In this document: piece after piece, positions 30,667 through 41,225 of the stretch
Position numbering within the stretch: position 1 is the stretch's first letter
How the letters are laid out: the number at the start of each line of letters is the position of its first letter
NCBI RefSeq assembly: GCF_020151015.1
Contig: NZ_CP083746.1
Coordinates: 1,827,001 to 1,891,000, forward strand
DNA: 64,000 nt
Direction of reading: 5' to 3'
Source of the DNA: Pseudomonas sp. p1(2021b)
GTDB lineage: Bacteria > Pseudomonadota > Gammaproteobacteria > Pseudomonadales > Pseudomonadaceae
Position numbers and translations under genes: made by a program
The notes under the pieces: generated by a model
The model's input: only the letters and a program-made list of their open reading frames with translations
What the model was told of the DNA's origin: nothing
Databases searched by the model: none

Positions 30667-31074
30667 TTAGCGGTCGTTCTTGGTGGAGGAGTCCACCGCG
30701 TTCGACAGCCCTTTGCTGTTGTGCGTACCCGGCGTGGTGCCGGAGATCGCAGTGGCTTTGGTCAGGCCGCGGGTGTCTTTCGACTGGGCGATGCCGGAGG
30801 TGGCAGTGCCGTGGCCTTTGCTGTCGTTACGGTCCTGACCATAATGGTTGCCGCTCAGGCCGTGGTCACGGGACGCCTTGCCGGCATGCCCGTCGGATTT
30901 GCCCAGGCCCAGGCCACCGTCACCATGCCCAGCCCCCAGGCCGCCGCCGTGTCCACCACCGCCGCCACCGCCTTTGGCATAAGCCGACGCGATCGGGGAC
31001 ATCTCAGCAGGCAGGAAGGCTGTGGTGCCCAATACCAGTGCAAAAGCAGCCACGGCAGCCAGGGTTTTCTTCAT
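30667..31074 (-). CDS. Small secreted Gly/His-rich protein of unknown function
   Basis: A 135-residue protein with a signal peptide (MKKTLAAVAAFALVLGTTAF, likely cleaved before or at SAYAKGG near residue 34). The mature part is a glycine-rich stretch with interspersed His and Asp (GGGGGGGHGGGLGAGHGDGG), then a polar Ser/Thr/Asn tail with no cysteine. I know no function; similar low-complexity secreted proteins are common in Pseudomonas. It lies 97 bp downstream of the siderophore operon on the same strand and has its own terminator. Whether it is part of that transcript cannot be told. Confidence 0.75.
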   Translation of the reverse strand: MKKTLAAVAAFALVLGTTAFLPAEMSPIASAYAKGGGGGGGHGGGLGAGHGDGGLGLGKSDGHAGKASRDHGLSGNHYGQDRNDSKGHGTATSGIAQSKDTRGLTKATAISGTTPGTHNSKGLSNAVDSSTKNDR

Positions 31075-31170: not shown

Positions 31171-32355
31171 TCAATCCTCCAGGAAGACCATGCGCGGCGG
31201 TGCGTGCATGAGGAAATCGCGGTGGGAGATATTCCAGGCATAGGCACCGGCCAGGGTGAACACCAGCAGGTCGCCGACCGCCAGTGCCGGGATCGGCTGG
31301 CGACGGGCCAGCACGTCCTTGGGCGTGCACAACTGGCCGACCAGAGTGACGGTCTGTTCCTCTATTTCCGCGCGCTGCTCGCCCCGCACCACCACGAACG
31401 GGTGGTCGTGCCCCTGGGCTGCCGGGGTGCGGAAATGGTGGGTACCGCCGCGGGCGATGGCGAAGTACTCGCCGTGGTTGCGCTTGATGTCCAGCACTTC
31501 CATCGCGTAGTAGCCACAGGGCGCGGCGATGTAGCGGCCGATTTCGAAGCGCAGGCGCACATCCGCCATGCCTTCCTCGGCCACCAACTGGTGCAGGGCA
31601 TCGCAGAAGCCTGGCCAGTCGAAGGCGCCGTGCGGGTCCCGGTAGTCGATGCCCATGCCGCCCCCGACGTTCAGCAGTGTGAGCGGCAACTGAGCGTCCT
31701 GGGCGATGCGGCGGAAGGTGCGGCAGTAGGCGCGGATCAACTGCAGGTGGGCCGCCACGTCGAGCTGGTGGGAGAGCAGGTGGAAGTGCAGGCCCTTGAG
31801 GGTGAGCAACGGTTCCTCGCGCAGCACGGCCAGGGCCTGGTCGAGCGCTTCTTCATCGAGCCCGAAGGGGGTCGGCTTGCCGCCCATCACCAGGCGGCTG
31901 TCAGGGGCTTCGTCGAGTTTCAGGTTCAGGCGCAGCAGCAACGGGATAGCTTGACCGGTTCGCCGGGCCAGGGCTGCCAGGCGGCGTAACTCATGCAGGC
32001 TTTCCACATGGAAGGCGTCGAGGTCGCCGGCCAGGGCGGCTTCCAGCTCGCTTTCCAGCTTGCCGGGGCCGCCGAAGATCAACGGGTGCCCGGGGCAGTG
32101 TTGGCGCAGCCAGGCCAGCTCGCCGCCGGACGCCGCCTCGAAGCCATCGACCAGTGGCGCCAAGGTGCGTAGCACCGCAGCCTCCGGGTTGGCCTTGGCG
32201 GCATAGAACAGTTCGCAGTTGGCTGGCAGCGCGGCGCGCATGTCGCGTACCCGCTCGCGTAGGGCCGGCAGGTCGTAGAGATAGGCGCAGACCGGTTCCT
32301 GCTGCTCGCGGCGCAGGTCGGCGAGGGCATGGCTGATACGCGGTGGCAGGGTCAT
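31171..32355 (-). CDS. pvsE: PLP-dependent decarboxylase of the vibrioferrin-type pathway
   Basis: A 394-residue fold-type III (alanine racemase/ornithine decarboxylase-like) PLP enzyme. The PLP lysine is in ELFYAAKANPEAAVL near residue 51, and LLNVGGGMGIDY near 216 contacts the phosphate. GQLCTPKDVLARRQP near 335 and the C-terminal GAYAWNISHRDFLMH are typical of siderophore decarboxylases. In vibrioferrin synthesis PvsE supplies the ethanolamine unit by decarboxylating a serine-derived moiety. The ATG overlaps the pvsD stop by four bases (ATGA). It is the last gene of the operon. The assignment rests on both fold and gene order. Confidence 0.88.
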   Translation of the reverse strand: MTLPPRISHALADLRREQQEPVCAYLYDLPALRERVRDMRAALPANCELFYAAKANPEAAVLRTLAPLVDGFEAASGGELAWLRQHCPGHPLIFGGPGKLESELEAALAGDLDAFHVESLHELRRLAALARRTGQAIPLLLRLNLKLDEAPDSRLVMGGKPTPFGLDEEALDQALAVLREEPLLTLKGLHFHLLSHQLDVAAHLQLIRAYCRTFRRIAQDAQLPLTLLNVGGGMGIDYRDPHGAFDWPGFCDALHQLVAEEGMADVRLRFEIGRYIAAPCGYYAMEVLDIKRNHGEYFAIARGGTHHFRTPAAQGHDHPFVVVRGEQRAEIEEQTVTLVGQLCTPKDVLARRQPIPALAVGDLLVFTLAGAYAWNISHRDFLMHAPPRMVFLED

Positions 32356-34106
32356 GCGCGGGCTCCGTGGAACAGGGGGTTGGGCAGGGCGGTGTAACCG
32401 GCTTCGCGGTCGGCGCGCTGCAGCAGGCGGGTCATGAAGTTCTCCTTGCTGGGCAGGGTGGCGCCGGCACACAGTTCGCTGAGTTCGGCCGGGTTGCCCA
32501 AGTGTTCGCACTGCGCTTGCAGTTGCTGGCCGAGCTGGGTCCATAGGCGTTTCTCCAGCGCCGCGTCGCCGTCGGCGAGGTGGAACAGGGCCTCGCCCAG
32601 GTTGTTGACCAGCGAGCAGTAGGCAACACGTTTCCAGGCTTTTTCCGGGCTGTAGTACAGCGAGGCGCGGGTGCGCTCGTCGAGGTCGGCCAGGCGCTGC
32701 TCGGGCCAGTGCCCGGCCACCAGCTTGGTGCCTTCCAGGTCGCGTACCCACACCCGGCAGGGCAGGCCGTCCTCGTCGAAGCCCAGCAAGGTGTTCTGCA
32801 GGTGCGGCTCGAGCACCACGCCTTGGCGGTACAGGCAATGCAATACGCCGCCGAGCAACAGCCCGGCATAACGCTCCAGCCACAGGGCGGCGGCTTCCTC
32901 GCGGCTCAGGCCCAGGCGGGCGGCGCACTGGCGCAGGCGCGACGCGCACATGCCGTGGCCATCCAGGCCCCAGGTGAACAGGGCCATGGCCACTTGCGGC
33001 TGGAAGGCCTCGCGGCTGGCGGCATCGAAGTTGCTGCGATAGAGAATGCCGAAGCATTCGGTCACCTCGCGGGCCTCTTCGGCGCTGCCCAGGGCGCTCA
33101 GGTCAAGGGTGCTGGCCGCCGGTTCCGGCATCAGGGCGAAGCCGGGCTGGTGGACGGCCAGGTCGGCCATGGCCGGTTGCAGCAGGTGGGTCAGGGCGAC
33201 GGCGCTGTCGAGCTCGTACCAGGCATTCTTGCGGATGCAGTTGGTCAGGCGCACATGCACCGAGAACTTGAGGAAGTAGGCCAGCTCCGGGTGGTAGAGG
33301 GTGCGCACCGAGGAGGTCGGGTACAGCGGTACGCCGCGCGCGCCCTTGTAGGTCATCAGGCCCTGGGCCATGGCCCGCTGCACCAGCGGGTTGGCCAGGA
33401 TGCGCTCCACCTCCCACGGGTGGCAGGGGTAGAGGTTGTCCTCGCCGCAGAGCTGGCGCAGGGTCGGGCGTGGGTCTTCGCCCAGGTGGCGCACCAGGGA
33501 GGGGGCCACTTCGAACCAGTGCAGCGAGAACTGTGCGCCCACTTCCGGCGAGCAGGCCAGCAGGTCGTCCAGGCTTACGCCTTCGCGGCTCTTGGGGGTG
33601 GGGTGCAGGGCATGGCCCCATACCTGGTGCTGCTCGGAGCGCAGCAGGCTGTCGGCGGGTTGGTGGTGGGCCGGGACCGCGTGGCGCAAGAAGGTCTGGG
33701 TGATGCTCAGGCTGTTGTTGATCTGCTGCATCAGCTCGCCGTGACGCTCGGCGCAGGTCAAAGGCGCCAGCAGCAATTGGGCCAGCTCCAGGGCACCCAG
33801 GGGGCGCCAGCCATGGCCGTTGCCCTTGAAATAGGGCGCGCTGGTGAAGCGGCAGCGCCCCAGCACACTGGTGCGGTCGGCGGCCAGGGCCAGGCGCCCG
33901 CCAGGCAGGGTGATGCAGATGCGCTGGCCGGCGAGCTGGCGCAGGCTCATGGGCAGGTCGTGGCCCTGAGCGTCGAGGCAGGCCTCGCCACGGGGCAGGG
34001 CGTATTCGCGCAGGTAGCAGTTGAGCAGGCACTCGATGGCGTGCCGCTGGGCGTCACCGGCCAGGGCGTGTTCCTGCAGGGATGGGTAATCGATGGCCAG
34101 GGTCAT
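32352..34106 (-). CDS. pvsD: NIS siderophore synthetase (IucA/IucC family), PvsD-like
   Basis: A 584-residue NRPS-independent siderophore synthetase, which adenylates a carboxylate (typically citrate) and joins it to an amine or alcohol. Family motifs seen are NLYPCHPWEVERILANPLVQ near residue 225, LYPTSSVRTLYHPELAYFLK near 260, HVRLTNCIRKN near 281, and VVLEPHLQNTLLGFDEDGLP near 430. The C-terminal FhuF-like region is intact. It starts in an ATGA overlap with the exporter gene and ends in one with pvsE. The specific step (citrate plus serine in the vibrioferrin scheme) is inferred from the order of genes. Confidence 0.9.
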   Translation of the reverse strand: MTLAIDYPSLQEHALAGDAQRHAIECLLNCYLREYALPRGEACLDAQGHDLPMSLRQLAGQRICITLPGGRLALAADRTSVLGRCRFTSAPYFKGNGHGWRPLGALELAQLLLAPLTCAERHGELMQQINNSLSITQTFLRHAVPAHHQPADSLLRSEQHQVWGHALHPTPKSREGVSLDDLLACSPEVGAQFSLHWFEVAPSLVRHLGEDPRPTLRQLCGEDNLYPCHPWEVERILANPLVQRAMAQGLMTYKGARGVPLYPTSSVRTLYHPELAYFLKFSVHVRLTNCIRKNAWYELDSAVALTHLLQPAMADLAVHQPGFALMPEPAASTLDLSALGSAEEAREVTECFGILYRSNFDAASREAFQPQVAMALFTWGLDGHGMCASRLRQCAARLGLSREEAAALWLERYAGLLLGGVLHCLYRQGVVLEPHLQNTLLGFDEDGLPCRVWVRDLEGTKLVAGHWPEQRLADLDERTRASLYYSPEKAWKRVAYCSLVNNLGEALFHLADGDAALEKRLWTQLGQQLQAQCEHLGNPAELSELCAGATLPSKENFMTRLLQRADREAGYTALPNPLFHGARA

Positions 34107-35245
34107 GCGGTGATCTCCCGTTGAGCGACAAGTAGAGGGCGGGCCAGCAGCAGCGCGGCGAATGCGGCGAGGCTGGCGACCAGGAACGGTGAAGCGATGC
34201 CAAGGCGTTGGCTGACCAGCCCCGCCACCACGCCGGCGGCGGCGCCGGCCCATTTGCCGCTGGAGTCGAACCAGGCGAACAGGCGCCCGGCACTGCCCTG
34301 GTTGCGCCGCTGGCTGAGGCAGCGGTGCAGGCCGATGAAGGCGAGCAACATGCCCAGCCCGCCGAGCAGGCGCCAGGCGAACAGCAGCCACGGGTCGCTG
34401 GCGCCGAACTGCAGCATGTTGCCCAGGGCGAACAGCGCGAGCCCCGGCAGCAGCAGGTTGCTTTCATGGCGCTGGAACCACGGCAGGGCGACCAGGTAGA
34501 CCAGGTGCGGCAGGGCGTAGAGCAGGCCGATCAGGGCATCGTTGCGCACCCCCAGGGCTTCGCCGTAGGGCACGAAGTAGGGGAAGGTGACGACCATGGC
34601 GAAGCAGAACAGGAACTGCACCAGCAGCAGGCGTGGCAGGTCCTGGGGCAGCTCGCTGCCTGTGTCGCCGGTTTTCTTGCGCGCCTTGGCCTGGCCGCGG
34701 TCGTCGGGCAGCGGCAGGATCAACACGAACGCCAGCAGCGGCAGCCAAGCCAATACGCGATACAGTTCCTGGCCCATGCCGCTGGCGGTGAGCAGGCCGA
34801 GCAGGATCGGCCCGCTGATCATCGCCAGGCGGGCCGAGTATTGGGTCCAGTTCAGGGCGCGCGACAGGTTGCCGTCGTTGAGCTGGGTGGCCAGGTAGGC
34901 ATTGGAGGCCGCCATGGCACCGCCGAAGGTGCCCTGGATCACCAGGGCCAGGGCGAACAGCGCAAGGTTCGGGCTCAGGCCCGCGAGCAGGAAGCCTGCG
35001 GCCAAACCGGCATGGGCGCGCAGCAGCGACAGCCGGCAACCGTGGCGATCCGCCAAGCGGCCCCAGATCGGCGCCGCCAGGGCGGTGCACAGGGTGGGCA
35101 GGACGAACAGCACGCCGATGCTCCAGCCCGGTGCGTCCGGCGCCAGGTCGGCGAGGATGCGTGGCAGGTACAGGGGCACGCCCAGGGCGGTGAACGCCGA
35201 CAGGTAGTGCCCCAGCAGCACGCTGAACATCAGGCGTCGGGACAT
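34103..35245 (-). CDS. pvsC: MFS transporter, probable siderophore exporter PvsC
   Basis: A 380-residue inner-membrane permease with about 12 hydrophobic segments. The motif-A-like loop WGRLADRHGCRLSLLRAHAG lies near residues 61-80, and RALNWTQYSARLAMISGPIL follows near 130. In the vibrioferrin operon the third gene is the MFS exporter PvsC that moves the siderophore to the periplasm; this gene is in exactly that place. It overlaps the end of the preceding synthetase gene by 16 nt and the start of pvsD by 4 nt. Confidence 0.88.
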   Translation of the reverse strand: MSRRLMFSVLLGHYLSAFTALGVPLYLPRILADLAPDAPGWSIGVLFVLPTLCTALAAPIWGRLADRHGCRLSLLRAHAGLAAGFLLAGLSPNLALFALALVIQGTFGGAMAASNAYLATQLNDGNLSRALNWTQYSARLAMISGPILLGLLTASGMGQELYRVLAWLPLLAFVLILPLPDDRGQAKARKKTGDTGSELPQDLPRLLLVQFLFCFAMVVTFPYFVPYGEALGVRNDALIGLLYALPHLVYLVALPWFQRHESNLLLPGLALFALGNMLQFGASDPWLLFAWRLLGGLGMLLAFIGLHRCLSQRRNQGSAGRLFAWFDSSGKWAGAAAGVVAGLVSQRLGIASPFLVASLAAFAALLLARPLLVAQREITA

Positions 35246-37005
35246 GCCGGGCCCTCCAGCAGGAAGTTCCGGGCGCTGTAGCCATAGAACTTGTTGATGT
35301 CCTGGGCCCCGGACCAGGCCTTGCTGAACAGGCTGCCGGCACTGAGCAGGTACTTGACCGGCAGGTAGGGGCTGTCGAGCAGGAAGCGGCGTGCCTCGCC
35401 GCAGTCCAGGCCCTCGCCTTCGAGCTGTTCCAGGCAGGCGTGCAGGCGCTCGCGCAGGCGCTGGTACAGCGCCTGGCGCGGGGCCAGCCCGGCTTCGGCG
35501 ATGGCCTCAAGGGGCGCGACGATGTTCAGTTGCAGGGTGATGGTGGTGAACATCTCCGCCAGCGGCTCGAAACGCTCCACACGGATGCGTTCGTCGCGCA
35601 GGCCCTGGCAGCGTTCGGCCAGGTCCGGGCAGGCGGCCAGGAAACGGTGCGGCCACAGGCGTGCGGCGTCGTTGTCCTTCATCAGCAGGCGCAGGGGCCG
35701 GCCCGCCTGGAACATCAGCACGGCGTTCTGCTGGTTGGCTTCCAGGGCGATGCCGTAGCGCAGCCACAGGCGCAGGTGCACCTGCAGCAGCAGGTCCAGG
35801 TACTGGTCCAGCCAGGCCAGCAGGTCGCCGCCATGGAAGCGCTCGGCCAGGGCCTGGACGAACAGCCGACCATCCTCCAGCGAGCTGGCCAGGGCCGCCA
35901 CCGGCACCAGAGTGGTCTGCTCCAGCCCTTCTGGGTAGTGGCGCACGATATAGGCCAGGTGCTTGTGCTCGCCGACGTGGCCGCCATGCAGCTCGTCGAC
36001 GTGCCGGTAGCGACCGGCCAGGGCCGGGTCGCGCTCGGCCAGGGCCTGCAGGATGCATTGGAAGGCATGGCCGTCATACAGGGTGCTGGGCTTGATCAAG
36101 CGCAGGTTGCGGGCCCCCAGGGTGCGGACCAGCAGCGGCAGCTTGATGTGCCAGCGCGGCTGGTCGACACAGGCGACGGTACGCACCGAGAGGGTCGGCT
36201 GCACCCACAGCGCAGGAGCTGGGGCGCGCACGGCGCCGGCCGGCAGGCCATGGCGCTCGAGCTCCGGCCAGGTCATCGGATGCACTGGCAGCAGCGCGTG
36301 GGTATGGGCCAGGGCCGGGTTCAGGCCCACCTCGGCGAAGCTTGGCCAATGCGCGGGCGGGGCGCAGGTCAACGCCAGGTCGCCCTGAGGCACGGCCAGC
36401 CAGTTCAATTGCAGGCGTGGGGCGAACTCGGGCGCGTAGCGTTGCAGGGCGTCCTGGTCGAAGCCGCTCTTGGCGCGGGCGGTGGGGTAGAAGGGGTGGT
36501 CGAGGTAGCTGGCCAGGCGGTCGATTTGCAGCAGGCGTGCGTCCCAGGTCGGGGCGTCGAGCAGGGCGGCCGGGTGGGTACCTTGCTCGACGCGGGCCTG
36601 CTGGCAGAGGACACGATGCGCCACGGCGCAGTCGGCTTCCTCGCCGTAGGCGCGGAACAGCGCCAGGCTCTCGTCGTCCAGCCCTTGGCTCATCAGCTCC
36701 AGCCAGGCTGCATGGCCACGCTCATGCAGAACCTGGCCCGCCTGGGTGCGCAACCAGGCATCGCCCAGGGCGCTCCAGGCTTGCAGCGGCGCCCCCTGGC
36801 GTACCGGCAGCCAGAGTTCGCCGATGTCCAGGTGGCTGACTTGTAACCAAGTACGGGAGGTGTGTGCCAGTTCATGGGCGGCGAGCGGCGTGGGCAGCGG
36901 GCCCAGGCGGCCCTGGCTGACCAGGCCGCGGATGTCCTCGCGCAGGAAGCAGTCGATGATGCGTTGGCCGATGGCTGCCTCGGCGCAGGCATGGGCGGCA
37001 GTCAT
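35230..37005 (-). CDS. pvsB: NIS siderophore synthetase (IucA/IucC family), PvsB-like
   Basis: A 591-residue second NIS synthetase, only distantly similar to the pvsD product. Motifs: LLPVHPMTWPELERHGLP near residue 239, WVQPTLSVRTVACVDQPRWH near 268, LRLIKPSTLYDGHAFQCILQ near 300, and ALEANQQNAVLMFQ near 428 (family EA.QQN motif). Two different NIS enzymes in one operon mean that two carboxyl groups are joined separately, as in vibrioferrin. The ATG overlaps the pvsA stop by 4 nt. The exact condensation it catalyses is not readable from sequence. Confidence 0.9.
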   Translation of the reverse strand: MTAAHACAEAAIGQRIIDCFLREDIRGLVSQGRLGPLPTPLAAHELAHTSRTWLQVSHLDIGELWLPVRQGAPLQAWSALGDAWLRTQAGQVLHERGHAAWLELMSQGLDDESLALFRAYGEEADCAVAHRVLCQQARVEQGTHPAALLDAPTWDARLLQIDRLASYLDHPFYPTARAKSGFDQDALQRYAPEFAPRLQLNWLAVPQGDLALTCAPPAHWPSFAEVGLNPALAHTHALLPVHPMTWPELERHGLPAGAVRAPAPALWVQPTLSVRTVACVDQPRWHIKLPLLVRTLGARNLRLIKPSTLYDGHAFQCILQALAERDPALAGRYRHVDELHGGHVGEHKHLAYIVRHYPEGLEQTTLVPVAALASSLEDGRLFVQALAERFHGGDLLAWLDQYLDLLLQVHLRLWLRYGIALEANQQNAVLMFQAGRPLRLLMKDNDAARLWPHRFLAACPDLAERCQGLRDERIRVERFEPLAEMFTTITLQLNIVAPLEAIAEAGLAPRQALYQRLRERLHACLEQLEGEGLDCGEARRFLLDSPYLPVKYLLSAGSLFSKAWSGAQDINKFYGYSARNFLLEGPACPDA

Positions 37006-38201
37006 GCGATCACCCAGCGCAGGTCGGCCAGGGTGGCCTGCAGGCGGGCCTGGAGGCGAGCGTCGTCGCGTTCGATCAGGCGCAGCACGCCGATGTAGTC
37101 CTTGTTGGAGTTGCTCAGGCGGATGTCATCGCCGGCCTGGTGCAGGGCGCGATATTCGTGCCAGTGGCCGTCACCTTCGTCCTGGAAGCTGCCGGGCGCC
37201 TCGCGCAGGTGCCCGGAGCGTTCAGCTACCAGGTAGTGCACCAGGGCATGGTTGTCGCCAGGTTGGGGTTCGGTGAGGGCCTCGCCCAGGTGCAGGGCCA
37301 GGATGCGGTCGAACCAGCCTTGCGGCAGCAGGCGCTCGAGCAGGAATTCGCGGCCGTCGCCAATGCTGCGGTAGTTGATCTCCACCAGCACCGGTCCTTC
37401 GGCGGTGAGGATGAATTCGCTGTGGCAGACCCCGAAATTGATGCCGAACGCGGCCACCTGGGCCAGTGCGGCGGCACGGTGGGCCTGGCCCAGCGGGCCG
37501 TTCCAGCGGGCGGCGAGCTCGACGAAGTACGGGGGCTCGGACAGGCTCACATCGAAGCCGCCGATCGTCCTCAGGCGCTGGCCATCACCGAGGGTTTCGA
37601 GGGTGAACAGCGGGCCCTCCAGGTAGGCTTCCAGCAGCAGGGCGCGGCCCGGGTTGAGCTGCCAGAACCGCGTGCAGTAGGCGCTGAGCTCGTCGGCGTT
37701 GCGGCACAACTGTACATCGAGGCTGGCAACGCCCTCCCGTGGTTTGGCCACCAGCGGGTAGCAGGCATCGGTGGGCAGCGCGGCACCTGGAGTCAGGACC
37801 TGGAACCACGGGCTGGGCAGCCCGAGCTGCTGCAGGCGTTGGCGCATGGCGGCCTTGTTCTTGGCGGCGTAGCACAGGTGCCAGTCCTTGCCGGGGCAGC
37901 CAAAAGCCTCGGCCACCAGGGCAGTGGCGGTCTGCAGGTGGTCGCTGTTGGAGAACACCGCCCGGGGCGCCCAGCCGTAGGCATTGATCAGCTCGATCAC
38001 CGCGAGCGGGTTGAACACGTCGCACTCATGGATCTGCAGGCGCTCGGCCGGGTAGCCGACGTTGGCCAGCAGGCGGCGGTGCTGCTGGGCGTGGTCGGTG
38101 ACCAGCACCACCGGCAGGTCCCGGGCCAGGGCCGCGGGCAGGAAACCTTCGGTGATGGCGGGGTGGGCGATGTGGGTGAGGATCACGAGCGGTCGTTGCA
38201 T
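37002..38201 (-). CDS. pvsA: ATP-grasp ligase, PvsA-like
   Basis: A 399-residue ATP-grasp enzyme, expected to form an amide bond through an acyl-phosphate. Evidence is the FGCPGKDWHLCYAAKNKAAM segment near residue 100 and CYPLVAKPREGVASLDVQLC near 150 (ATP-binding lysine). Near the active centre are CHSEFILTAEGPVLVEINYR, around residue 260, and SIGDGREFLLERLLPQGW. In vibrioferrin synthesis PvsA is the ligase that brings in the amino acid (alanine). It follows the receptor gene by 77 nt and overlaps pvsB by 4 nt. The amino acid is inferred from the known pathway, not read from sequence. Confidence 0.87.
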   Translation of the reverse strand: MQRPLVILTHIAHPAITEGFLPAALARDLPVVLVTDHAQQHRRLLANVGYPAERLQIHECDVFNPLAVIELINAYGWAPRAVFSNSDHLQTATALVAEAFGCPGKDWHLCYAAKNKAAMRQRLQQLGLPSPWFQVLTPGAALPTDACYPLVAKPREGVASLDVQLCRNADELSAYCTRFWQLNPGRALLLEAYLEGPLFTLETLGDGQRLRTIGGFDVSLSEPPYFVELAARWNGPLGQAHRAAALAQVAAFGINFGVCHSEFILTAEGPVLVEINYRSIGDGREFLLERLLPQGWFDRILALHLGEALTEPQPGDNHALVHYLVAERSGHLREAPGSFQDEGDGHWHEYRALHQAGDDIRLSNSNKDYIGVLRLIERDDARLQARLQATLADLRWVIA

Positions 38202-38278
38202 GTTGGCCTCCGAATGGGCGGCAGCCGTCCCTCCGCGGGGAGCGGACGGCTGTGGGGTGGTACGGGAAAGGGTGTGGG

Positions 38279-40354
38279 TTAGAAGCGGTAGTTCACGCCG
38301 AGCGTGACCGTGCGGCCTGGGGCCGGCTGGCGTCCCAAGGGACTGGTATCAATGCCACGGAAGTAATACTGACGATCGAACAAGTTACTAATGCCAGCGG
38401 AGGTAGTCAGCACGCTATGGTTGGCAAGTTTGAACGTACGCTCGATTGCAGTGTTCCATATCCAATAAGCAGGGAGCGGACCATGTTCACCGTCAGGATC
38501 TTCATCATGACTGTTGGCCGCATCACTGTAGCTTTTGCTGATATAGAGGCCATCCAAACTATAAGTCCAGAACTCGGCGAAGTGGTAGCGACCATCGAGG
38601 ATTAATTGGTGCTTGGAAGCCTTCGGTACATCGTTGCCCTTATATTGACCGCTGCGCTGCTTGGCATCCAGGAATGCATACCCCGCATGCAGTTCGAGAC
38701 CACGAATAGCTTCAGGTGACCAAAAAATTTCTGTCTCGAATCCTTGGTGACGGGTGCTACCCAAGTTTACAAAACGGTCGATGCTGCCGTCATATTCGAT
38801 TTGATCGTCGAAATCGATGCGATACAAACCAAAGTCCACACGCAAGTTTTCCTGCGGAGTGTAGCGCACACCTGTTTCGTAGTTCCACGCAATTTCCGAG
38901 GCTACAGCACCCTCTTTTACGATTTGACTAACTTGTGGCGGTCTTAGGGAACGTTGGGCATTGGCATATACGAACCATTTATCAGATGCTTGGTAGCCAA
39001 CGGTTAAGCCGGGCAGCCATTCTTTGGCTTTATTGGTGCGTTTGAAACCGCTCACCCCATCGGAGTAGTCCATAGTTGCGTTTTCGTACCGCACGCCCGG
39101 TGTGATAGTAAGGCGATGGTCTAATAAACTGATAGCGTTACTCAAGTATACGGCTTTGGCATCATTGTCGAACTTCCAATCGCGAATTACTCTAGTGTTT
39201 CCACTTGCCAGATCCTGTCGATAAACGTCGTAATCAATATCCTCACTGATATAGCGTGCGCCAACGAGCCACGTCTGCCCGACGGTGTCGCCATCAATGC
39301 TCATGCTCAAGCGCGGTTCGCTACCCCAAACCTTGAAATCGCGAGGGCTTTCTTGTTTTTCGTTTGCTGGTACATCTGGCGCAAATGGTTGACCGATGAC
39401 GAAATTTCGATAGCTATCATGAGCAAAATTGGTCCAACTGAACTCCACCGAATCGAACGGCCCCATGGCGCCTAAGTATTGGGTATAAGTACCCCAAATG
39501 CGGTTGGTATCCCCTTCGAAGCGGTCCAGGGGCCGGGTGGACTGGCGTGGGTCGTCCTTGTAGTCCTTGACGCTGAGCGCACCAGCCAGGTCCATGTCGG
39601 CGACATAGCGCTGGATGCCGAAGCTGAACTCGCGGTCGTCATCAATGTTCCACTGCCCGCGCAGGCGGTAGTTCTGCACGTCGGTGTCGGAGTGTTCGCG
39701 GCCGTATTCACCGTTGAGGGTGTTCAGGTCCAGCTGCAGCCCGAAGTTATCGGTCAGGTAGCCGCCGGTGCCCAGGTAGCTGTCCCACAGCTGGCGCCCG
39801 CCGGGGGCGAAGGTGGTGCGCTCCTGCAGGGTGGTTTCCCATTTGCGCGGGATGGGCTTGCTGATGAAGTTGATCACCCCGCCGACGTTGTTGGGGCCGT
39901 ACTGTACGGCCGCGCCGCCGCGCACGATGTCGATGCGGTCCACCGTGGCCAGGGTTGCCGGGAACAGCGACATGCCGGTCTGGCCGTAGGGGGCCAGCGC
40001 CAGCGGGATGCCGTCAGACAGCGCCTGGATACGGCCGCTGCGGCTCTCGTACAGACCGCGCACGGAAATCTGCGGCAGCGCGCCGGTACCGGTCTCGTCG
40101 AAGATCTTCACCCCTGGCACCCGCTGCAGGGCATCGTCCAGGCCGCGCACGCTGCCTTTCTTCAAGTCCTGCTCGTCGACGACGCTGCGGCTGCCGCTGT
40201 AGGTGAGCACCTCCGGTGCGCTGGCTTTGCCCAGGACATCGCCTTTGATGACCATCGGTTCGACGACGATCGGATCGTCTTGCTCCGCGGCATGAGCGAT
40301 ACCGACTGTGAGCAGGCTGAGGGGGAGAGCGAGTAGATGGCTTGTTGTTTTCAT
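38279..40354 (-). CDS. TonB-dependent ferric siderophore receptor (mosaic gene)
   Basis: A 691-residue outer-membrane receptor with signal peptide MKTTSHLLALPLSLLTVGIA (cleaved after HAA). A TonB-box-like segment VVEPMVIKG is near residue 30, followed by a plug domain (LDDALQRVPGVKIFDETGTG, then VDRIDIVRGGAAVQYGPNNV) and a beta-barrel ending in the aromatic TLGVNYRF. There is no N-terminal STN extension, so no FecIR-type signalling. It is FecA/PvuA-like and presumably imports the ferric siderophore made by the flanking genes. Base composition is uneven: codons for residues 1-280 and the last ~20 are GC-rich, while those for residues about 280-670 are sampled at 38-50 percent GC. Confidence 0.92.
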   Translation of the reverse strand: MKTTSHLLALPLSLLTVGIAHAAEQDDPIVVEPMVIKGDVLGKASAPEVLTYSGSRSVVDEQDLKKGSVRGLDDALQRVPGVKIFDETGTGALPQISVRGLYESRSGRIQALSDGIPLALAPYGQTGMSLFPATLATVDRIDIVRGGAAVQYGPNNVGGVINFISKPIPRKWETTLQERTTFAPGGRQLWDSYLGTGGYLTDNFGLQLDLNTLNGEYGREHSDTDVQNYRLRGQWNIDDDREFSFGIQRYVADMDLAGALSVKDYKDDPRQSTRPLDRFEGDTNRIWGTYTQYLGAMGPFDSVEFSWTNFAHDSYRNFVIGQPFAPDVPANEKQESPRDFKVWGSEPRLSMSIDGDTVGQTWLVGARYISEDIDYDVYRQDLASGNTRVIRDWKFDNDAKAVYLSNAISLLDHRLTITPGVRYENATMDYSDGVSGFKRTNKAKEWLPGLTVGYQASDKWFVYANAQRSLRPPQVSQIVKEGAVASEIAWNYETGVRYTPQENLRVDFGLYRIDFDDQIEYDGSIDRFVNLGSTRHQGFETEIFWSPEAIRGLELHAGYAFLDAKQRSGQYKGNDVPKASKHQLILDGRYHFAEFWTYSLDGLYISKSYSDAANSHDEDPDGEHGPLPAYWIWNTAIERTFKLANHSVLTTSAGISNLFDRQYYFRGIDTSPLGRQPAPGRTVTLGVNYRF

Positions 40355-40386
40355 TCGTACTGGCAACTGCTTGTGGCTGGAAAGGA

Positions 40387-41157
40387 TCAGGTGGTGGGTT
40401 GCAGCTCGGCCAGGCGCTTTTTCAAGGCGCCGTGCAGCAGGCCGCGGTCTTCGCCGGCCAGGTAGCTGCGGATGCCCAGGGCTTGCCAATGGCGATGCTG
40501 CTCCGGGGTACGCGGGTTGGCGCAGAACGGGACGCCAGCGTGCTGGCAGGCACTGGCCACCTCCTGCAAGGCCTGCCAGACCTGCGGATGCAGAGGGTCG
40601 GGGCCCAGCTGCAGGTCCAGGGCGAGGTCCAGTGCGCCTTCCAGGACCATGCCGATGCCGGGCAGTTGGAGGATGTCGGGCAATGCGCGCAGACCAGCGG
40701 CGCTTTCGATCATCGGCACGATGGGGCAGGCCTGGTTGGCCTGCTCGATGTAGTGGGGCAGGGGCAGGCGGCCGAAGCCGGTCACCCGGCCACCGGTAAT
40801 GCCGCGACGCCCCAGGGGCGGGAAGAACGCAGCCTCGACGGCGCGGGCGACCTCGGCCGCGCTTTCTACCCGGGGCAGCACCACCGCCTCGACGCCGGCA
40901 TCGAGGGCACGGCCGATCAGCTTGGCGTCGACCTCGGGAACGCGCAGCCAGGGCGATACCCCGGCAGACTCGCAGGCCCGCACGCAATGCATCAGTTCAT
41001 CGCCGGCGCGCAGCAGGTGTTCCATGTCGAGGATGAGGAAGTGATAGCCGGCGAGGGCGATCATTTCGCACAGCCAGGGAGAGGGGACAGAATTGAGCAG
41101 GCCGTAGGCGTTTTCGCCATTCCTTAGCCTTGCCAGTACGGGTGAGGGTCGAATCAT
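40387..41157 (-). CDS. HpcH/HpaI aldolase family protein, proposed SbnG-like citrate synthase
   Basis: A 256-residue class II aldolase-fold protein of the HpcH/HpaI family. It keeps the family's active-site pattern: FLILDMEHLLRAGDELMHCV near residues 40-59 (Asp, Glu, His), SPWLRVPEVD near 70 (Arg), PMIESAAGL near 150 (metal-ligand Glu) and VLEGALDLALDL near 172 (metal-ligand Asp). In staphyloferrin B synthesis the relative SbnG is a citrate synthase that supplies citrate to NIS synthetases. Being the first gene of a citrate-type NIS operon suggests the same job here. A degradative aldolase is the alternative. It is 32 nt upstream of the receptor gene. Confidence 0.8.
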   Translation of the reverse strand: MIRPSPVLARLRNGENAYGLLNSVPSPWLCEMIALAGYHFLILDMEHLLRAGDELMHCVRACESAGVSPWLRVPEVDAKLIGRALDAGVEAVVLPRVESAAEVARAVEAAFFPPLGRRGITGGRVTGFGRLPLPHYIEQANQACPIVPMIESAAGLRALPDILQLPGIGMVLEGALDLALDLQLGPDPLHPQVWQALQEVASACQHAGVPFCANPRTPEQHRHWQALGIRSYLAGEDRGLLHGALKKRLAELQPTT

Positions 41158-41185: not shown

Positions 41186-41204
41186 GCGAATGATAACGAC
41201 TCGC
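41186..41204 (-). promoter_or_regulatory. Candidate Fur box of the siderophore operon
   Basis: Read on the minus strand, gcgagtcgttatcattcgc matches 11 of 19 positions of the Fur consensus gataatgataatcattatc, with the core ttatcatt intact. It lies 29 bp upstream of the first gene's ATG, in the expected place for iron repression. Confidence 0.65.
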
Positions 41205-41208
41205 AAAT

Positions 41209-41225
41209 AAATGTAAATTACATTT
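41209..41225. promoter_or_regulatory. Perfect 17-bp AT-rich palindrome next to the Fur box
   Basis: aaatgtaa-a-ttacattt is a perfect inverted repeat four bases upstream of the candidate Fur box. It could be an operator for a second regulator or simply the AT-rich promoter core. No regulator gene lies in the operon. Confidence 0.5.

Follow-up and report, generated by a model that had tools for sequence, protein, structure and literature searches.

We analyzed a 64,000-nucleotide stretch of the Pseudomonas sp. p1(2021b) genome (contig NZ_CP083746.1, positions 1,827,001 to 1,891,000; here called the window), which carries a putative vibrioferrin-type siderophore operon headed by a gene for an SbnG-type protein. 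The list of open reading frames (ORFs) with their translations shows seven genes, all running leftward at 31171-41157 and all without internal stops (Table 1). Pfam and NCBIfam models backed the family assignments, so the seven gene types named in the original prediction were confirmed in intact frames. In the gene orders given below, G is the first gene (SbnG-type), R is the receptor, and A to E are the PvsA to PvsE types. Gaps of 32 bp (first gene to receptor) and 77 bp (receptor to ATP-grasp gene) precede the last five genes, A to E, which are joined by overlaps of 4, 16, 4, and 4 bp, exactly as predicted. The best start for the receptor is at 40354 (691 amino acids); a longer 902-amino-acid ORF that begins upstream at a TTG is over-long. 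This protein scored 289.1 bits against TIGR01783, above the cut-off of 223.5, and 355.2 bits against the FecA model, below the cut-off of 1100.

Table 1. Operon genes and upstream sites, in window coordinates (aa, amino acids; NIS, nonribosomal peptide synthetase-independent siderophore; MFS, major facilitator superfamily; PLP, pyridoxal phosphate)
Feature	Coordinates	Strand	Evidence
SbnG-type HpcH/HpaI-fold protein, predicted citrate synthase, 256 aa, operon gene 1	40387..41157	-	PDB search, Foldseek, residues, equivalog scores
TonB-dependent siderophore receptor, 691 aa, PvuA/XsuA position	38279..40354	-	TIGR01783; Plug and barrel domains
PvsA-type ATP-grasp ligase, 399 aa	37002..38201	-	PF02655
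PvsB-type NIS synthetase, 591 aa	35230..37005	-	PF04183 and PF06276; B tree
PvsC-type MFS exporter, 380 aa	34103..35245	-	PF07690
PvsD-type NIS synthetase, AcsD-like, 584 aa	32352..34106	-	PDB best match AcsD 2w02; D tree
PvsE-type PLP decarboxylase, SbnH-like, 394 aa	31171..32355	-	PDB best match 6knh
Weak Fur-box-like site, 11/19, 28 bp before first start codon	41186..41204	-	Consensus scan
Sigma-70-like promoter TTTACA-16-TATCAT, overlapping the Fur-like site	41190..41217	-	Promoter scan

The order of these genes was compared across 298 genomes of the genus, the window's own included, with thresholds of E = 1e-30 for the first gene and E ≤ 1e-60 for PvsB. A first-gene homologue was present in 51 of the 298, at 70% identity or more in 21 and at 38 to 42% in 30. 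PvsB was found in 21 genomes, and these were the same 21 that carry the closer first-gene homologue. Because all 20 of the other loci have the order G-R-A-B-C-D-E, the content and order of the operon exceed chance. A search of other Pseudomonas genomes for the seven-gene order, as the original prediction had proposed, was thus positive; the prediction's claim of a new arrangement had to be abandoned, since the identical order recurs in all 21 PvsB-bearing genomes and the published order of the Xanthomonas citri xss cluster is mhpE, xsuA, and xssA to xssE (PMC6804348). The Xanthomonas cluster has the same seven gene types in the window's order, and vibrioferrin is reported to be made in X. campestris (PMC5130282). 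However, its first gene is named mhpE or mphE, a 4-hydroxy-2-oxovalerate aldolase, and is a presumed ortholog of the window gene. A six-gene cluster that includes the X. campestris receptor gene XCC3050 is described as resembling pvuA-pvsABCDE (PMC1790865).

Published pvs operons extend to Azotobacter (PMC4465626), P. oligotrophica (PMC9164167, citing P. fragi), and P. aeruginosa outliers (PMC6372532). Among sequences taken without gene context, first-gene homologues with 68 to 84% identity came from Azotobacter beijerinckii, P. oligotrophica, P. paraeruginosa, P. bubulae, and Stutzerimonas xanthomarina. A contig scan with the first protein gave one locus, that of P. boanensis, and the compared loci include no named Xanthomonas. 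In P. boanensis (L003:10001-11100), the SbnG-type gene and A to E are kept, with about 280 bp in the receptor's place; start-like and end-like bits in this segment resemble a receptor remnant. In one Pseudomonas relative among the 20 loci (L071:9108-10849), the B gene was matched in two pieces and may be interrupted. On a plasmid of P. mandelii JR-1 (L125:11001-16238), an SbnG-type gene and a 37% receptor stretch are followed by a Tn3-family transposase, and no further pvs gene was matched in that stretch.

As judged from the proteins and their order, the window's five-gene core, and with it the assigned pathway, is very likely of the vibrioferrin type. The genes encode, in turn, an ATP-grasp ligase, an NIS synthetase, an MFS exporter, an NIS synthetase, and a decarboxylase, with a linked TonB receptor, and both the families and the shared locus order upheld the predicted correspondence to pvsABCDE. 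The A protein is 36 to 52% identical to that of the ATP-grasp gene of distant pvs loci. The best PDB match of the D protein was AcsD (2w02; E = 1.1e-63), which makes O-citryl-serine. For the E protein, it was 6knh (E = 5.4e-104), identified in PMC7139808 as SbnH. In quick trees of B, D, and E (27 rows, with five of the 20 genus loci, P. boanensis, and six achromobactin [acs] rows), the window grouped with Pantoea and Vibrio fortis in 10-row pvs-only sets with support of 99, 100, and 95, respectively. A careful B tree (28 rows, with six of the 20 genus loci, P. boanensis, and four acs rows) split pvs from acs rows at 100/100 and placed Vibrio sp. THAF190c among the former; loci L079, L084, and L085 are in no tree. 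The phylogeny called for at the outset placed the window's B, D, and E proteins with pvs sets and not with achromobactin. In X. campestris, vibrioferrin is the product of a homologous operon, and a xibR xssA double mutant is reported to have no detectable siderophore (PMC5130282).

Next, we considered the first gene, whose product is the only HpcH/HpaI-family match in the whole genome. In a PDB sequence search, SbnG (4tv5) was the best match at E = 5e-50, and the next different protein followed at E = 5.5e-29. A predicted model of the protein (mean pLDDT 90.5) again gave SbnG 4tv5 as the top Foldseek match (E = 1.5e-22; root mean square deviation, 1.6). Of 75 rows compared, at least 97% have the SbnG-type residue at M149, E173, A175, C212, P215, R216, and R238, and none of seven aldolase rows has it; one aldolase row does not reach the last of these positions. 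About one third of the 75 rows are the window and its Pseudomonas kin, and 11 were picked by protein name without gene context; the Acinetobacter soli copy (L133), which has internal stops, was omitted from this set and from the gene tree. The named best relatives of the protein are from Pseudomonas. SbnG of Staphylococcus, from the staphyloferrin B cluster, is characterized as a citrate synthase of distinct structure that makes citrate from oxaloacetate and acetyl-CoA (PMC7139808). The siderophore assembly genes of that cluster differ from those of the window. The best reading of the sequence and the predicted model is that the first protein belongs with SbnG and is a predicted citrate synthase, and the SbnG-like label of the original prediction stands by sequence, fold, and residues. 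A literature search, which did not reach the main SbnG paper, found no paper that calls the first gene of vibrioferrin operons a citrate synthase. Its functional identification as such, hidden under the name mhpE outside Vibrio, may be new. For Photobacterium, GltA and secreted citrate are treated in PMC5550697.

Upstream of the first gene, a Fur-like site and a promoter-like site overlap (Table 1). Against the Fur consensus, the best site in each of 22 relatives scored 13 to 15 of 19, and in 19 of the 22 it lies 27 to 34 bp before the start; 13/19 or more was reached by 3 of 1,000 random 200-mers of the window. The scanned region held two promoter-like sites where 1.3 were expected by chance, and TTTACA also occurs upstream in eight of 11 relatives compared. 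In X. campestris, a Fur box is reported 41 bp before mphE (XCC3049), which adjoins the receptor gene XCC3050 (PMC1790865), and promoter activity has been assayed for mphE of X. citri (PMC6804348). Fur control of the window's operon is plausible from these sites.

In the mechanism that we propose, iron limitation would relieve Fur repression of the promoter that precedes the first gene, and the SbnG-type enzyme would make citrate from oxaloacetate and acetyl-CoA. The AcsD-like synthetase D would couple this citrate to L-serine, and the decarboxylase E would convert the product to O-citryl-ethanolamine. The ATP-grasp enzyme A would couple alanine and 2-ketoglutarate, synthetase B would unite the two halves, C would export the product, and the receptor would re-import the ferric complex. 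The chemistry given to A, B, D, and E follows the vibrioferrin pathway.

Taken together, the sequences make it quite probable that this is an iron-starvation operon that makes, exports, and re-imports vibrioferrin or a very close analogue and carries its own citrate supply. Several observations weigh against this reading. The first protein is 36% identical to SbnG. Aldolases come next in Foldseek (E = 9.6e-20), with the same TM-score on the query as SbnG (0.88). Since two ordinary genes of the citrate synthase fold are present in the genome, an extra supply borne by the operon may be unnecessary. Support for separating pvs rows from acs/sbn rows in the quick trees was 100 with B and 63 with E; the root split of the D tree had support of 3, and the single Rhodococcus row fell on the acs side at 81. 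Finally, the 11/19 score of the window's own Fur-like site was reached by 111 of 1,000 random window 200-mers and by 35% of shuffles of the upstream region and is not significant alone.

To place the first gene in a wider context, we searched two sets of genomes, 369 from the class and 398 from the phylum, each including the window's own, with a B-like threshold of E = 1e-20. A B-like match was present in 11 other genomes: two have R-A-B-C-D-E-G, two have A-B-C-D-E-G in the stretch examined, five have pvs sets without the first gene (one fragmentary), and the remaining two have no ATP-grasp match and were not counted as pvs. Searches of the five gene-less genomes in full gave no first-gene match in four and a 23% match in G895. 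At L079 (genome G617), the pvs set was matched mostly in fragments, as if decaying; two loci of the same family and genus code are unbroken. Plasmid records were also examined, nine of 11 with a PvsB match (all except Embleya NBC_00888 and a second record of Cupriavidus necator H16) and nine of 19 with a first-gene match. The first gene stands before pvsA on a Pantoea soli plasmid and at the tail in C. necator H16 and two Rhodococcus plasmid records. It is absent from plasmid pvs loci of Vibrio (two), Piscirickettsia, Streptomyces, and Embleya, a result that refers to the plasmid loci and, for G719 (with the V. fortis plasmid locus), to the whole genome.

The Vibrio pvsABCDE set has the same five biosynthesis and export genes in the same order, and the V. 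fortis B protein is 46% identical to that of the window. In contrast, its receptors are divergently placed, and no SbnG-type gene is present in the Vibrio loci examined, among which the V. parahaemolyticus operon is not included, or in the whole of genome G719. To that extent, the earlier statement that the Vibrio operon has no citrate synthase gene was borne out. In the B tree, presence and absence of the first gene need three changes, with three gene-less sets (Vibrio; the Piscirickettsia type; Streptomyces/Embleya) each nested among gene-bearing loci and with Vibrio joining Pantoea at 96/98. The root of this tree rests on the long achromobactin branch and differs between the quick and careful trees, and long branches are flagged. 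Because Vibrio loci without the gene are nested within those that bear it, parsimony favors loss, and the simplest reading is that the first gene was lost in Vibrio rather than gained in Pseudomonas. The idea that it had been added to a Vibrio-type operon is thus doubtful and probably has the polarity wrong. A broader proposal, which we hold to be finely balanced, is that a dedicated, iron-controlled SbnG-type citrate synthase is an ancestral and general part of vibrioferrin operons; its aldolase name (mhpE) would be a misreading, and it would have been lost repeatedly, in Vibrio, the source of the textbook model, among others.

Capture of a citrate synthase-like gene by the Pseudomonas/Xanthomonas lineage, which would have added it to a five- or six-gene ancestor, is unlikely. 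It would fit the varying position of the gene, at the head in Pseudomonas and Pantoea and at the tail in others, and the gene appears able to move alone. In the first-gene tree (19 of 31 acs rows thinned out), the tail-type L083 joins the head types (100/98), unlike in the B trees, and the Rhodococcus pvs copy pairs with a staphyloferrin-B-like copy of Pseudonocardia (98/87; L131, L129, L140). The latter pairing suggests that the first gene was exchanged between siderophore pathways in Actinobacteria. Otherwise, however, the gene tree broadly tracks the operon, from Pseudomonas with Azotobacter through Xanthomonadales relatives and Pantoea/Oceanisphaera to the tail types, and the three nested gene-less sets of the B tree argue for loss.

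It is distinctly improbable that the first gene encodes a true pyruvate-type aldolase (annotated 4-hydroxy-2-oxovalerate/2-oxoheptanedioate aldolase) that provides a modified building block, with a vibrioferrin analogue as the product. Sources that name the first-gene homologues label them as aldolases or as members of the aldolase/citrate lyase family, and these labels and the equal TM-score would agree with such an enzyme, as would the scaffold residues D44, E46, H47, R72, E151, and D177, which are common to aldolases. Against this stand the wide margin by which SbnG is the best match, the seven SbnG-type positions, and the equivalog models for HpaI/GarL/YfaU-type aldolases, for which scores and cut-offs were 117.4 and 368.8, 100.1 and 406.75, 98 and 393, and 92.2 and 441, so that the protein falls 250 bits or more short of all four listed. 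An ordinary HpaI-type aldolase was rejected on these scores and residues. Furthermore, members of the first protein's family also occur in clusters of the achromobactin-like and staphyloferrin-B-like kinds, whose known products are citrate based.

The 30 genus loci with a 38 to 42% homologue are achromobactin-like: D-E-G-B order and no ATP-grasp match in 30 of 30 and an extra NIS gene between E and G in 26 of 30. AcsB of such clusters is of the same family as the first protein, but it lies midcluster, alongside other NIS enzymes; in P. syringae, it is annotated as an HpcH/HpaI aldolase (PMC3329529). Achromobactin clusters have the order acsD-E-yhcA-C-B-A with three NIS synthetases, whereas the window has another order, an ATP-grasp gene, and the only two NIS synthetases of its genome, and achromobactin was rejected as its identity. 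A different NIS siderophore as the product, whether of the achromobactin type or of the staphyloferrin B type, is therefore highly improbable, even though D resembles AcsD, E resembles SbnH, and the first-gene family is common to acs and sbn-like clusters, given that an ATP-grasp gene is present, that B separates from acs at 100/100, and that the 30 achromobactin-like loci are differently ordered and more divergent in their genes.

Immediately 3' of the operon lies a small glycine-rich ORF with a signal-peptide-like start (30667-31074, minus strand), followed by a terminator-like hairpin and T run at 30647-30620. No Rfam match was found at gathering scores. The operon shows no sign of recent foreign origin, because its G+C content is 0.664 and that of the window is 0.652. 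We looked next to the other compared loci for the flank DNA and for five proteins of the flanks (NhaB-like, BCCT, enoyl-CoA hydratase-like, DHFR-like, and GFA-like), and no shared chromosomal site was seen; the exceptions were distant BCCT-like genes near L082 and L120 (same place, about 40% identity), accompanied by short DNA matches, and a single DNA match of 179 bp at 71% in L003. Elsewhere in the genome (5.57 Mb in two contigs), 14 nonribosomal peptide synthetase condensation domains are spread over two regions, so a second siderophore, made by that route, is possible.

If the proposal is right, the mhpE/4-hydroxy-2-oxovalerate aldolase annotation in Xanthomonas and Pseudomonas siderophore operons would be corrected, and the SbnG-type citrate synthase would extend from staphyloferrin B to a widespread siderophore. 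The Vibrio operon would then become a reduced form and not the reference form. Vibrioferrin makers that bear the gene could make their siderophore independently of the citrate pool of the tricarboxylic acid cycle, and they would offer a simple test of whether siderophore citrate comes from that cycle or from separate synthesis.

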